Assembly: GCA_017540175.1 (NCBI GenBank)
Contig: JAFYBN010000077.1
Location: 1-52,936 of the forward strand
Reading direction: 5' to 3'
Length of the DNA: 52,936 nucleotides
DNA from: Clostridia bacterium
GTDB taxonomy: Bacteria; Bacillota; Clostridia; Oscillospirales; CAG-272
Each line of letters starts with the position of its first letter. Position 1 is the stretch's first letter. The translations under genes and the position numbers were made by a program. The notes under the pieces are model-generated. The model saw only the letters and a list, made by a program, of their open reading frames with translations. It was not told the origin of the DNA and did no database searches. Positions 39,618-52,936 of the stretch are shown here, in pieces.

Positions 39618-40397
39618 ACGCTCTACGCGGATATTCTGTTCCTCATCAACTTCGCGATGGATTTTCTCACCCTCTGGCTTGCGGGGACGGCGGCGCACAA
39701 ACCGATCGCAAAGAAAAGACTGCTCATCGCGGCGGCGCTCGGCGCGTTCTTCGGCACGCTCGAGAGCTGCGCCGGGATCGGCTTTGGCGCGCTCCGCGTG
39801 TTCTTCGGCTTCCTCCTCTCCCTCGCGATGACGGCGGCGGCGTTCGGAAAGCCCCGTTCGGCAGGGGCCCTGCTCCTCGACAGTGCGGCGGTGTGGGGGG
39901 CGGGCCTGCTCATCGGGGGCGTCATGACCTTTCTCATGAGCGCGGGGGATGGGACCCCTGTCGGGGGAGAGGAGCGGTTTCCGCTGGCGGCCGCGCTGTG
40001 CTTTCTCATCTCGCTCGCCTTTTCCCGCATTGGGAGAAGACGTTCCCGTGCGGGGACGGCGCGGCTCGTGATCGAATCGAACGGTGTGCGGCGCGAGCTG
40101 ACGGCGCTGATCGACTCCGGGCTCACGGCGAAGGAGCCGATCTCACTGCTCCCCGTGGTCCTCGTGACGGCGCGGGGAGCGGGGGAGTTTGCCGCCATGC
40201 TGAAAGCCGAGAATCCCCCGCTTCGGCTGCGGGTCGTGCCGCTCAGAGGCATCGGCGGGGAGCGCGTTCTCTACGGTTTCGTGCCGGAGAAGATCACCGT
40301 CGCGGACAGGGAGACTTCCGCCGTCGTGGCGGTGGATGAGAAGAGCGAATCCTTTGCCGGCACCGATGCGCTCATGCCGTCCGAGCTGATCCCCTGA
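39618..40397 (+). CDS. spoIIGA: Sigma-E processing peptidase SpoIIGA, apparent non-AUG start
   Basis: Membrane aspartic protease that cleaves pro-sigma-E in the mother cell. The conserved N-terminus LYADILFLINFAMDF is encoded from 39621, before the first in-frame ATG (39657). No ATG, GTG or TTG exists in frame between the upstream stop (39543) and that ATG. ACG at 39618 is 7 nt after GGGAGGTG and is the best start candidate; the protein is then 259 residues. Five hydrophobic segments lie in 1-130, and the protease site is Asp166 (LIDSGLTAKEP, DSG form). The C-terminus DALMPSELI looks complete. The partner sigE, normally next, is absent; a 1.4-kb repeat element follows. A base error or mutation of ATG to ACG is an alternative. 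Confidence 0.85.
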   Translation, partial: TLYADILFLINFAMDFLTLWLAGTAAHKPIAKKRLLIAAALGAFFGTLESCAGIGFGALRVFFGFLLSLAMTAAAFGKPRSAGALLLDSAAVWGAGLLIGGVMTFLMSAGDGTPVGGEERFPLAAALCFLISLAFSRIGRRRSRAGTARLVIESNGVRRELTALIDSGLTAKEPISLLPVVLVTARGAGEFAAMLKAENPPLRLRVVPLRGIGGERVLYGFVPEKITVADRETSAVVAVDEKSESFAGTDALMPSELIP

Positions 40398-40419: not shown

Positions 40420-41830
40420 GGCAACAAACGCTTCGTGTCTTTGGAACGTTGATTTGCCCGGCATGACTGCGTCGATGTGAGTTGACCTCTTGCCTCGCCG
40501 ACGCACGCTTTACTTCAAAGAGACCGTTTTTCCCTTGCCTCGCCGGCGTGACTGCGTCGGCGCGCGTGACGGAGAGGGCTTCTCAGGAGCAAACGCTATT
40601 ACATTTTTACCCTGTGCGGGCGGCGGTGGAGTCTGTTGAAACCGCATGTTCTTTAATGAAACAAACGCTTCGCGTTTGTGGAACGAAGTATTGTCCTACG
40701 CGGACGGCGGCACGGGGGGACCAGCTCAGGCCGCATGGCCCCTGCGCCGACGCAGTCGCGCTGTGCAGGGCCCATTGGCCATTACATCTGTGCTCCTCTC
40801 ACCTTTTCAGCGGCTCCGACTCGTCAGCGGCACTTATCAGCCGAAGTTTTCAGCGACTGCGGCTCTCGAATCGTCAGCTGAAACATTGCAATTCGCGCCT
40901 CGCGCGAATTGCCGCGATCCAAATTCGCGAATTACACGACGCGTTAAGCCTAAGCGAAAACTGAAGTGCGTCTTCGCGAACGTAGCGCCAGCTATAATCT
41001 GCTAAACCTATTTCCGTTTCAGCGCGACGTAAAGTGCGACTCCTGCCGCTCGTATTGCGAACGCGGGTAGAAAATCCTGCGGAGCCGCGGTAAAGCGCTC
41101 ATTGTTTTTTGCTGATGCTGTCGCGAGAATAGGATGCTGTGCTGTTAGGTGGCGCGCTTCAGCGCGGAGTGATTACTTGAAGTTGATGTCGTTCGTGAAG
41201 ACGAACGCGTTTGATTACACGACGCGTTTGGCTGTCAGCGGAAGTCGACGTGCGTCTTCGCGAATTGGAGTTTGCGGTTGTCTGCTGAATTTGTTCGCGT
41301 TTCAGCAGATTATAGCGCCCCCATGTGCGCGAGGCTGTTGAGCGATGACGCTGAAGCTGAACGCGCCCGTGCAATGCGCGTTTATGAGCGCATGAGGAAA
41401 TTCGCGCGGGCGCGAATTTCCAAGTTTCGGCTGCAGAGTATTTAGTTCGCGCTGAATCTGTTCAAGTCCAGTCCCCTTGTCATTTACTGTTCGCCGACAA
41501 GTACCGCTGAATAGGTGAGAGGAGTGAAGATGCACTGTCGGAGCCGCTGAAGAGGATCAAGAACAACAGATTGGATGGCCAAGGTGACCCCACCGGGGGC
41601 GCCACTTTCGCTTGCGAAAGTAGTCGGCCATGAGATGGCGCCCCGTGCCGCCGCCCGCGCAGGGCAATTCAAATCCGTAATTCTCAAACGCGTTAGCGTT
41701 TGTTTCCAAAAAGAACACGCGGTTTCCGCAGACTCCCTGTGCGCCGCCCGCCGCCTCGACGCAGTCAGGTACCTCGACGCAGTCAGGGGGCAATATCTCA
41801 TACCGCAAACGCGTAGCGTTTGTTTCCTAA
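40420..41830 (+). repeat. Large non-coding palindromic element, copy A
   Basis: Fills the whole gap between spoIIGA and the SLH-NlpC gene. Both ends carry related sequence in opposite orientation: blocks near 40614-40720 match the reverse complement of about 41640-41745, including the 7-bp hairpin CAAACGC-ttc-GCGTTTG (40662-40678) against CAAACGC-gtta-GCGTTTG (41685-41702); a further copy of this hairpin is at 41806-41822 and a decayed one at about 40423. Inside are GCAATTCGCG/CGCGAATTGC (40888-40912), AATTCGCGAATT (40922-40933) and GGAAATTCGCG/CGCGAATTTCC (41396-41421). A 16-nt tandem repeat lies at 41754-41787. The element is collinear with copy B reversed. No credible coding sequence. Confidence 0.85.
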
Positions 41831-41875: not shown

Positions 41876-43807
41876 TCATTTCAGCTCCACCGCCTTGAGG
41901 AGGGTGCCGGAGAGGTCGAGGGGCTGGATCGCTACGGGCATGCCGCCGATGTAGGCGTGCACGATCGTGGGCGTGCCGTTTTCCTCGCCGAGCCAGATCA
42001 TGACGTGGCCGGGCCGGTAGATCGCGGTCGGGTACCGGAGGGAGCCGAGAAGCGCCGACCGCTCTGCCGCGCCGAGGGAGGAGATGTCCTGGCCGACGCC
42101 GGCGTATTCCCGCTGCTCGCTCGTGTTGCGGGGCAGCTTGACGCCGAAGGAGCGCATCACGGCGCAGACGAAGCCCGAGCAGTCCACGCCCCCGTTCGCG
42201 CCGCCCCAGCCGTAGATCACACCGAGGTATTTGAACGCCTGCTCGTAGAAGTTTTTCACCGTATAGGGCAGAGCCCCCCGCACCGCGTCGGATTTCGGGA
42301 TCCACGCGCGATGCTCGGCGAGACAGCGGTCCGGGGAATAGTCGGACGCCGGCATGACGACGTACCAGCGTTCGTCATCCTCGCCGAGATAGGGCAGGCG
42401 CGCGCCCATGTCGAGCGTGCCGACGAAATCGCCGTTCACCCAGTCCGGCTCGTCGCCGACCGCCCACGTATTCACGGAGGTCACGGTGACGAAATCCTCG
42501 GCAAGCACATATTTGAGCCACACCTCCCGCGTGCAGTAGACCGCTGCGGACGAGGGGATCCAGCCGATGTAGTTCCCGGTCTGGACGAAGAGCTCGCGTC
42601 CGTCCGCGCTCTCGTGCAGAACGGCGACGGGCTCGCCGAGAATGACCTCGGTCTCCTGGATCATGCTGTAATAGACGTCCCCCGCGGCGTAGATGCCGAC
42701 GAGCTCGGTCGGAAGACTCTTCATGTCGCAGCGGGTCGTGACGACCGCCCAGCGGACCGTCACCGTCTCCGGGATCGACGAGAGAGCGCGGTTGTCCAAA
42801 ATCGCCCGCCGCTCGTTCCACGGGATCACCCGACCTTCGAGGTCCCGGTCGCATCCCTCGGGGAAGGCGTAAGCCTCGATGCGCGCCCGGACCTCGCCGC
42901 CGTTCACCGACGACGGGTAGGACACAAGGTCCACCATCGTCGGGCAGGCCGCGGTCATGCGGGCGTTTGCCGCGGCGATCTCGCCGGGGGTGAGCAGAAC
43001 TTCATCCGCCGAGCCCGCGCCGAAGCGCTTTTCGTAATTCGCCGCCCAATACCGCGCGAGCCCGGAAGCGGACGCGGGATCCGTAGGATCGGGGTCGGTC
43101 GGATCGTCGGGAGTGTCGGGAGCGTCGGAAACCGTGAACCGCACGCGGGCGGCCGGATCGGTCATCCGGCTCAGAATCGCCGCGATCTCCGCCCTCGTCA
43201 CGCAAGAATCGGGGGAGACGGCATGGGTCACGGCGTCCGTGCCCTGAATGATCCCGGCGCGCGCCATATGATACACGGCGTCATGCTGGGGATGCGAAGC
43301 GTCCACGTCCGGGAGGGAGCCTTCGGGAAGATCGTTCAGCGCGGGAAAATCCGCTGCGCAGGGGAGGAACAGTTCCATGATCTCAGCGCGGGTCGCGGCT
43401 CTTTCCCATTCGTATGTCTTTGCGATCAGCCCGATCTCAAAGGCGAAGTCCACATAGGTGGAATACCATTTCTCCGCGCCGTTTTCCAGCGCGACCGTCT
43501 CATACAACCCGTCGGCAAGCCGCCGCAGGCAGACCGCGAGCTTGAGCGCTTCGGAAAGGAGCAGATTTCCCTCCGGCTCATACCGGTCGGGGGCGCGTCC
43601 GTTGATCAGTCCCGAGGCGCAGGCACGCGCCACGTCGGCGTAATACCACGCGCCCGGGAGCACGTCGGCAAAGGGCATGGCGGCGGTCGACGGCGCGGGC
43701 GCTGTGAGCGTCTCGCCCGCGTCATCCGCCGAGAAAACGGGCACGGCGGACAAAAGCATGGTGAGCGCGAGCAGCCAGAGCACAGCGGGTTTTCCGTATT
43801 TCTTCAT
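41876..43807 (-). CDS. SLH-domain NlpC/P60 cell-wall hydrolase
   Basis: 643 residues. Signal peptide (1-26; LLALTMLLSAVPVFSA), about three S-layer-homology repeats (about 40-235; PFADVLPGAWYYADVARA, TRAEIMELF, TRAEIAAILSRM), an Asp/Pro/Thr linker, SH3-like regions (about 330-500) and a C-terminal NlpC/P60 domain. Catalytic Cys543 is in GVDCSGF and His601 in RPGHVMIWLG. SLH repeats dock on pyruvylated secondary wall polymer; NlpC/P60 cuts peptide stems of peptidoglycan, so this is a surface-tethered wall remodelling enzyme. Its start is 1 nt after the stop of the preceding gene. Confidence 0.92.
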   Translation of the reverse strand: MKKYGKPAVLWLLALTMLLSAVPVFSADDAGETLTAPAPSTAAMPFADVLPGAWYYADVARACASGLINGRAPDRYEPEGNLLLSEALKLAVCLRRLADGLYETVALENGAEKWYSTYVDFAFEIGLIAKTYEWERAATRAEIMELFLPCAADFPALNDLPEGSLPDVDASHPQHDAVYHMARAGIIQGTDAVTHAVSPDSCVTRAEIAAILSRMTDPAARVRFTVSDAPDTPDDPTDPDPTDPASASGLARYWAANYEKRFGAGSADEVLLTPGEIAAANARMTAACPTMVDLVSYPSSVNGGEVRARIEAYAFPEGCDRDLEGRVIPWNERRAILDNRALSSIPETVTVRWAVVTTRCDMKSLPTELVGIYAAGDVYYSMIQETEVILGEPVAVLHESADGRELFVQTGNYIGWIPSSAAVYCTREVWLKYVLAEDFVTVTSVNTWAVGDEPDWVNGDFVGTLDMGARLPYLGEDDERWYVVMPASDYSPDRCLAEHRAWIPKSDAVRGALPYTVKNFYEQAFKYLGVIYGWGGANGGVDCSGFVCAVMRSFGVKLPRNTSEQREYAGVGQDISSLGAAERSALLGSLRYPTAIYRPGHVMIWLGEENGTPTIVHAYIGGMPVAIQPLDLSGTLLKAVELK

Positions 43808-51799: not shown

Positions 51800-52936
51800 A
51801 TCAAAGGGGCGGCTGTCCCCTTGCCTCGTCGGTGCGACTGCGTTGATGAGAGTTGGCCTCTTGCCTCGCCAGCGCGACTGCCGTGCCGACGCTGTCGCAC
51901 TTGGCGCGTGGGAGAAGTGTCACCGTCGTGAGACGGTGACGGAGAGGGCTTTAAGGAAACAAACGCTTCGCGTTTGTAGTACGAGATATTGTCCTACGCG
52001 GACGGCGCAGGGAGGGGACCAGCTCAGGCCGCAGGTCCCCTCCCTGAGGGTCCCCTTGGCCATTATATCTGTGCTTCTATCACCACCGAAGCGGCTCCGA
52101 CGGTGAAGCTTCACTTCTCTCCCCTATTCAACGGTACTTGCCGGCGAACAGTAAATGACAAGGGGACTGGACTTGAACAGATTCAGCGCGAACTAAATAC
52201 TCTGCAGCCGAAACTTGGAAATTCGCGCCAGCGCGAATTTCCTCATGCGCTCATAAACGCGCATTACACGGGCGCGTTCAGCTTCAGCGTCATCACTCAA
52301 CAGCCTCGCGCACATGGGGGCAGCTATAATCTGCTAAGCTTGTTAGCGTTTCAGCAAATTTCTGCAAACTAACATCTGCGAAGACGCACTTCGACTTTCG
52401 CTGACAACCAACCGCGACCTGTAATCAAACGCGCTCGTCTTCACGAAAGGTTTCAGCTTCAAGAAATCAGGCCGCGCTGAAGCGCGTCACCTTACAGCAC
52501 CGCATCCTATTCTCGCGACGGCAACAGCATAAAACAGCAAGCGCTTTAACGCGGCTCCGCAGGATTTTCACCCGCGTTCGCTGGACATGCAATGAAAGCC
52601 GCATTTTTCGTCGCGCTGAAACGGAAACAGGCATAGCGGATGAAAGTTGACGTCCTGTGCGCGAAGACGCACTTCGACTTCCGCTGACAGCCAAACGCGC
52701 CATGTAATTCGCGAATTTGGATCGCGGCAATTCGCGCTGGCGCGAATTGCAACGTTTCAGCTGACGATTCGAGAGCCGCAGTCGCTGTGAGTTTCGGCTG
52801 ATAACTGCCGCTGACGAGTCGGAGCCGCTGAAAAGGTGAGAGGAGCACAGATGTAATGGCCAATGGGCCCCGCACGGGGGGACCTGCGGCCTGAGCTGGT
52901 CCCCCCGTGCCGCCGTCCGCGTAGGACAATTTCAAA
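51800..52936 (-). repeat. Large non-coding palindromic element, copy B (cut by window end)
   Basis: Inverted and collinear with copy A. Left end: blocks CTCTTGCCTCGCC, GTGACGGAGAGGGCTT and hairpin CAAACGC-ttc-GCGTTTG (51960-51976). Then stem CAGGGAGGGGACC (52008-52020) / GGTCCCCTCCCTG (52034-52046). The core 52133-52333 matches A 41306-41505 reversed. Hairpins GGAAATTCGCG/CGCGAATTTCC (52217-52242), AATTCGCGAATT (52706-52717) and GCAATTCGCG/CGCGAATTGC (52727-52750) follow. The right end has stem GCACGGGGGGACC (52872-52884) / GGTCCCCCCGTGC (52898-52910). By comparison with copy A the element should continue beyond the window. No credible coding sequence. Confidence 0.85.

Follow-up and report, generated by a model that had tools for sequence, protein, structure and literature searches.

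The element in the window

The window analysed here is a stretch of 52,936 nucleotides from a Clostridia bacterium of the order Oscillospirales (contig JAFYBN010000077.1), whose genome is referred to as G000. Repeat and BLAST analysis placed an element copy with mosaic outer repeats (copy 1) at 40420..41830, which upholds the coordinates given in a preliminary description of the window. Its left neighbour is spoIIGA (39657..40397, plus strand; Pfam PF03419, E 3.8e-23; NCBIfam TIGR02854, E 2.4e-11, below the cut-off), and its right neighbour is a gene with NlpC/P60, SH3 and SLH domains (41876..43807, minus strand; Pfam PF00877, PF12913, PF00395). The core of copy 1, common to the other long copies of the genome, spans 40654..41736 (matched query bases ~241-1317), and the outer parts at ~40420-40650 and 41740-41830 are mosaics of further short repeats. 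The left outermost repeat unit (40423..40459, plus strand) is a direct repeat (D1) of an inner unit at 40660..40696 (plus strand), which contains the hairpin ACAAACGC-TTC-GCGTTTGT and forms the outer edge of the left end module. This module (40687..40790, plus strand; 59.6 bits with covariance model R1, 56.6 bits with model R2) is composed of a hairpin P1, a hairpin P2 carrying an extra hairpin, and a pseudoknot tail; its P1, GTCC-TACGC-GGAC, was read from the sequence at 40693..40705 (plus strand), and its pairs were counted in the covariation test. The right module (41567..41671, minus strand; 64.1 bits with R1, 56.3 bits with R2) likewise has P1, a P2 with a hairpin in the loop, and a pseudoknot tail. 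It is followed by the right copy of the AAACAAACGCT hairpin unit (41694..41713, minus strand; I2, D8, I14) and by the right outermost repeat unit (41788..41826, minus strand; I3). In the interior, repeat copy a (40931..41023) is a direct repeat of copy b (41214..41306), with inverted relatives in the other half (D3, D4, D11, I16).

Copy 2 (51836..52936) is inverted relative to copy 1 and is cut by the contig end, which it reaches at 52936. According to BLAST, 52048-52930 on the minus strand corresponds to query bases 271-1171 with 85% identity, and a further match is located at 51836-51870 on the plus strand (91%). Its left module (51985..52071, plus strand) scored 112.1 bits with R1 and its right module (52848..52933, minus strand) 96.0 bits; the left one is among the 11 modules of G000 from which R1 was built with a hand-drawn structure. 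Model R2 comprises 123 modules from ten genomes and was run on part of the 25 genus genomes.

The ends of copy 1 are mutually inverted, with the pairs I2, I3 and I6 being 82-89% complementary, and many inverted repeats were found in its interior. Self-inverted 11-mers numbered 33 in copy 1, with 1.3 expected and a maximum of 7 in 100 dinucleotide shuffles, and 52 in copy 2, with 0.83 expected; two control stretches of the window contained 0 and 1. The core of copy 1 folds with a z of -12.8 as RNA and -12.6 as DNA (20 shuffles each), compared to -0.9 for one control stretch of equal length folded as RNA (20 shuffles). These shuffles and control stretches rule out chance or a low-complexity artefact. 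The four ORFs inside the two copies have no match in Pfam, which rules out a coding element, and the region at 40420-41830 is confirmed as a non-coding quasi-palindrome. The preliminary description had reported a large non-coding region whose ends are diverged inverted copies of each other, with a hairpin-packed interior and a second, inverted copy near 51.8 kb, and on each of these points our data agree with it. The Rfam search that it had proposed returned no match for the window at the gathering score and none for the element at E up to 1; in 12 loci of relatives, Rfam matched only a T-box leader and two tRNAs, all outside the elements. A known RNA family was ruled out on these grounds.

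Conserved pairing in the end modules

A full element consists of two modules in inverted orientation, the left one on the plus strand and the right one on the minus strand. The span of such module pairs is 387-389 bp in G013 (three pairs), 395-410 bp in G004, 421-473 bp in G022, 527-533 bp in G008 (four pairs), 545-675 bp in G018 and G006, 700-725 bp in G017 (eight pairs) and 733-1006 bp in G000 (14 pairs). In the loci taken from G002 and G024, we recognised no more than a single module in each element. The interior differs between species and is itself quasi-palindromic. A consensus fold of the 14 G000 elements contains 100 long-range pairs, in which 1336 of 1400 cells are paired; covariation over the whole element is weak in this genome (16 of 140 consensus pairs and 8 of 100 long-range pairs). 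Full copies are thus shown to be quasi-palindromes in which the same structured module stands inverted at both ends of a species-specific palindromic interior. The two modules of one element often differ in their P2 stems and loops, so that the ends are not simple inverted copies.

Hairpin units were also found outside the modules, such as GTCTGC-GAGT-GCAGAC in G013, and in three aligned G013 copies one hairpin stands at both ends. In the arms of the G017 elements (L135-L142) we observed extra tandem units of the P1 hairpin, ~62 bp long and inverted between the two sides, the number of which differs among copies. When seven G002 modules were aligned with their flanks, an outer hairpin beside P1 was common to all of them; beyond it the flanks are unrelated in four of the seven, and three of the seven have a further stretch, another cap, in common. 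At least two types of outer hairpin cap occur among copies within one genome (L149, L150 and L106 of G022; G002 flanks). The outer caps differ among copies, so that the ends of the element can be placed only approximately.

A set of 47 distinct terminal-part copies was compiled. The module has a size of ~75-125 nt and follows one plan: the P1 hairpin, a linker (GGCG or similar), the long P2 hairpin and a tail. The letters of the P2 stem vary among copies with complementarity kept, and the P2 loop is complementary to the 3´ tail, which makes a pseudoknot. RNAalifold found only 11 pairs in the first module alignment, two of them with compensation, because MAFFT had misaligned the variable P2 stems. 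The P2 pairing was drawn by hand from 11 G000 modules and then tested on others. In 139 distinct modules, 17 of 17 modelled pairs showed changes on both sides, and 96.8% of the cells were paired compared to 67.8% in shuffles, in an alignment that was fitted to the model and is thereby biased towards the structure. Against such a bias, sliding the partner by one to three columns reduced pairing to 41-56%, and the drawing of P1 and P2 had used one genome only. Both sides had changed in 705 cells, compared to 192 in shuffles. The building of a covariance model had also been proposed in the preliminary description. Further pair types showed no excess (46 versus 47.3 in shuffles, a value reached by 412 of 500 shuffles).

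Matches between loop and tail take different forms: GAGCG/CGCTC in G013, GTCG/CGAC in G013 and G022, AGCCGG/CCGGCT in G016 and GCGGC/GCCGC in G009 and G019. The left tail of the G013 elements is unlike the right one, and each fits its own loop. Ten relatives supplied 41 distinct loop/tail sets, for which the pseudoknot score was 11.76 with the own tail and 9.91 with permuted tails (0 of 1000 permutations reached it), and after deduplication to 28 sets it was 11.96 versus 9.88 (0 of 1000). These 41 are part of 110 distinct sets; the other 69, from G000, G002, G006, G018 and G024, were excluded because nearly all of them have GGCC. An earlier test with 107 short-loop modules gave 4.11 versus 3.34 bp (top of 200 shuffles 3.79) and was weaker because most G000-like modules have GGCC in common. 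The fit is poor in nine of ten G017 sets, with only 3 bp, and in both sets of the G009 locus L089, with 2-3 bp. Taken together, the stems and the pseudoknot are shown to hold their pairing while the letters change. An outer AAGGRA spacer was present in 44 of 146 modules and in 3 of 146 cases in the control stretch, and is enriched but not universal.

Some P2 stems of modules in L039, L043 and L047 (for instance L039:11789-11914) are broken by a short palindrome, GCGCGACTGCGTCGGCGC. It looks as if small repeats had inserted into these modules or swapped within them at the interrupted stems.

Covariation of this kind could be expected of a structured-RNA family, in which the module would be a functional RNA domain of two hairpins and an H-type pseudoknot, and the elements would be multiplied RNA genes or untranslated regions. 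The covariation is strong and includes the pseudoknot, and pseudoknots are more usual in RNA than in DNA, which counts against a reading at the DNA level. In addition, A-C cells outnumber G-T cells in the inward reading (100 versus 42 in one count, 54 versus 26 in another), as G-U tolerance on the outward strand would produce, and eight of ten species lean that way in P2. However, few independent stems stand behind this excess, and the two are level in G000 and G024. Furthermore, standard G-U pairs are scarce: with 2187 Watson-Crick, 26 G-T, 54 A-C and 18 other cells, G-U or G-T accounts for 26 of 2213 paired cells. This is ~1%, which is low for an RNA family, and it hints that the pairing is maintained at the level of DNA. 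The modules of an element are also oppositely oriented, so that any transcript would read one of them as antisense, and Rfam has no match. We consider a structured-RNA family rather unlikely. Pairing at the DNA level, which might be kept through recognition of folded DNA or through template switching, is preferred here over an RNA function. In the parts of the literature on it that were available to us, template switching is described as producing multi-base compensatory changes (PMC8794818).

Copy number, distribution and gene context

The preliminary description counted two copies and proposed a search of the genome and its relatives, which found copies in both and showed that two is a large undercount. 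In G000 (3.90 Mb, 125 contigs), copy 1 gave at least 168 BLAST matches, with 40 of 84 first-look candidates scored, and R1 found at least 45 modules. On 18 contigs of this genome, an element match lies at or near the contig end; the repeats thus break the assembly, and copy counts are lower bounds. The copies of G000 are often only 75-85% identical to one another in BLAST, so that much of the spread may be old. Outside G000, the copy 1 query was matched in 7 of 58 relatives (8 of 59 including G000), and nearly all of these matches fall within the two terminal modules (query ~235-331 and ~1156-1288). One of the seven, in G023, was disregarded, being a 23-base stretch that by eye lies within a gene.

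A search of the genus with R1 (E up to 0.001, at most 150 candidates scored per genome) found modules in 15 of 25 genomes, G000 included, with up to 96 per genome. Besides the modules of G000, there were at least 96 in G002, 92 in G006, 50 in G018, 49 in G024, 31 in G017, 26 in G004, 25 in G022, 21 in G013 and 15 in G008, and two to six each in G016, G009, G011, G003 and G019. Ten of the 25 genomes gave no match with R1 among the candidates scored at E up to 0.001, one of which, G007, has 11 modules according to R2. We regard the element as a genuine family with many copies, found widely across the genus, whose end module covaries and contains a pseudoknot.

Beyond the genus, we found weaker versions in further genera and in a second family of the order. 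In the family, R2 matched 10 of 196 genomes (strict filters, 22 candidates scored per genome), namely five of the genus of the window, three of genus g41, one of g66 and one of g7. The g7 match (G120), which resembles a chance hairpin, was excluded from the count of members. A g41 locus (L293 1501-1716) contains a whole element in miniature, ~215 bp long, that has the two modules as well as a hairpin in its centre. In the order, R2 matched 5 of 394 genomes (11 candidates scored), which are G000 and four genomes of genus g157 in family f13. The eight f13 loci represent seven places, since L313 and L314 are one place, and three of them have plus/minus module pairs spanning 379 bp (L306), 390 bp (L310) and 404 bp (L313); by eye, the f13 pseudoknots are weaker.

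A short module pattern retrieved 91 stretches, all of them in four MAG assemblies, RUG10688, RUG12348 and RUG12770, labelled 'uncultured Ruminococcus sp.', and SIG615, labelled 'Oscillospiraceae bacterium'; we take RUG to stand for rumen uncultured genomes. Going by these relatives, the bacterium of the window probably lives in the rumen as well. At E up to 1e-5, copy 1 matched none of 50,697 phage records and none of 72,556 plasmid records, and three short exact patterns had no match in viral contigs, which rules out phage or plasmid cargo.

For 76 classified units located between genes, as called with a simple codon-usage gene caller, 42 lie between tandem, 20 between convergent and 14 between divergent genes, compared to 241, 52 and 56 for all adjacent gene pairs at the same loci; not part of this count are 36 units too close to the edge of a contig or locus and three inside a called ORF, and some weak hits or hits on both strands enter it twice. 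Units between convergent genes show some enrichment and no orientation class is avoided, a pattern that fits insertion wherever no gene gets broken. The 14 units between divergent genes also speak against multiplied RNA genes or untranslated regions.

The place of copy 1 next to spoIIGA could be compared across the genus, in which 20 of 25 genomes have a spoIIGA match. A sigE frame follows within ~60 bases after spoIIGA in 19 of 19 genomes other than G000 (tblastn with the G002 protein, 64-100% identity). At the spoIIGA locus of G000 tblastn found no sigE, and the element follows spoIIGA instead. The sigE gene of G000 is located on contig C71 (L044) at 1522-2244, 82% identical to the G002 protein, directly behind an element copy at C71:150-1425; the SigE proteins of G002 and G000 have SigE models as their best match, below the cut-offs. 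A tRNA suspected by eye to the left of this copy was not confirmed. Thus at least one copy occupies a site that is empty in 19 of 19 relatives, and a copy marks each of the two breakpoints. The operon may have been split by recombination between copies, or else contigs were wrongly joined across the repeat during assembly. G002 and G018 (L115, L173) each have a copy a short way downstream of spoIIGA and sigE, beyond a gene judged by eye to be rpmE; the two may go back to one old insertion.

Copies on both sides of the spoIIGA/sigE break are what a host-kept site of chromosomal architecture or recombination, serving the nucleoid, replication or programmed rearrangement, might also show. However, the family is patchy in the genus, given the ten genomes without an R1 match (G007 with its R2 matches among them), and its copy number varies widely. 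We find such a role hardly credible.

Interpretation and comparison with known systems

The preliminary description left the choice between a mobile element, a structured RNA and a nucleoid or replication site. A mobile element fits best, because of the high copy number, the intergenic places, the unrelated flanks in four of seven G002 copies and the empty place in 19 of 19 relatives; the pairing statistics lean away from RNA towards DNA, and distribution and context gave no evidence for a nucleoid or replication site. The region is probably a copy of a high-copy, non-coding interspersed element, giant, REPIN- or MITE-like and non-autonomous. Its modules would be the recognition ends, which an enzyme supplied by the cell might recognise as folded single-stranded or cruciform DNA, with copies spreading into intergenic sites. 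The pairing might be kept by that recognition together with hairpin-templated (template-switch) correction during DNA replication, and recombination between copies would rearrange the chromosome. Such palindromes might be tolerated because the palindrome nuclease SbcCD has been lost, but this is not supported, since SbcD matches were found in 25 of 25 genus genomes (over the cut-off in 22 of 25).

More tentatively, the element might represent a new class of selfish elements with a conserved shape, in which pseudoknotted two-hairpin ends are inverted around a free-running palindromic interior, spread through two or more families of a single order and mobilised by an enzyme that reads structure instead of sequence. 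It looks like a kind of element that is not described in the sources searched: our search of the open-access literature, which covered few subscription papers, turned up no account of an element like this from these bacteria. It is possible that the module is among the unnamed predictions of large structured-RNA surveys of microbiomes, such as PMC8040213, which was available to us in part.

If the ends are read by shape, the family provides a natural set of hundreds of rewritten, equally folded recognition sites. In that case, whether selection or template switching maintains the stems, the question treated in PMC8794818, would be directly testable. A mobilising enzyme, if new, would be a target for discovery. 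Furthermore, elements at the ends of draft contigs and at the spoIIGA/sigE break bear on the quality of assemblies and perhaps on the rearrangement of genomes.

BIMEs are mosaics of REP and other motifs, and like the element they chain several short repeat families at one intergenic site. The element differs from them in being built as a palindrome with two modules, and in having a span that is typical of the species. With the structured RNA families of Rfam it shares size and dense structure, but it has no Rfam match.

MITEs and the enterobacterial RU elements (PMC2759123) resemble the element in being short and non-coding, with inverted repeats and many intergenic sites, judging from the portion of that work available to us; on the same basis, the element is larger and multi-hairpin, its ends are not simple inverted repeats, and it has no known transposon parent. 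A classical MITE, derived by deletion from a DDE transposon and with terminal inverted repeats that are hairpin-rich by chance, would account for the inverted ends, the absence of genes and the many copies, and also for the hairpin at both ends of the three aligned G013 copies. However, inspection by eye of two copies (L144 and L146), whose ends are uncertain given the variable caps, revealed no target-site duplication, and P2 stems that often differ between the two ends are unlike simple inverted repeats. A classical MITE is very unlikely on these grounds. No gene-bearing copy was seen among the copies met in passing.

The closest outline is that of REPINs, inverted REP doublets moved by RAYT, with REPs of 20-40 bp and a GTAG/CGTC tag (PMC3116915, PMC3733652, as far as these sources were accessible). 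Like the element, they are non-coding, with an inverted palindromic pair that makes the whole unit a hairpin, and have dozens of intergenic copies. If the elements were true REPINs, moved by a RAYT (Y1, HUH) transposase, the corresponding enzyme would be expected beside them. A Y1_Tnp match (PF01797) was found in 8 of 25 genus genomes, six of which also have modules (G004, G007, G008, G009, G017 and G022). However, G014 and G015 have Y1_Tnp but no R1 module, and in a search of incomplete draft genomes there was no match in the five most module-rich genomes (G000, G002, G006, G018 and G024) or in G013. In addition, compared with what the accessible parts of these sources describe, each end of the element carries two hairpins and a covarying pseudoknot in a unit of ~75-125 nt instead of 20-40 bp, by eye without a constant GTAG or CGTC tag, and the whole unit measures ~0.2 to 1.1 kb instead of ~0.1 kb. 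We judge true REPINs to be very improbable. Since the tag and, in the genomes with most modules, the Y1 enzyme fail, the element is not filed as a REPIN; it is REPIN-like in outline.
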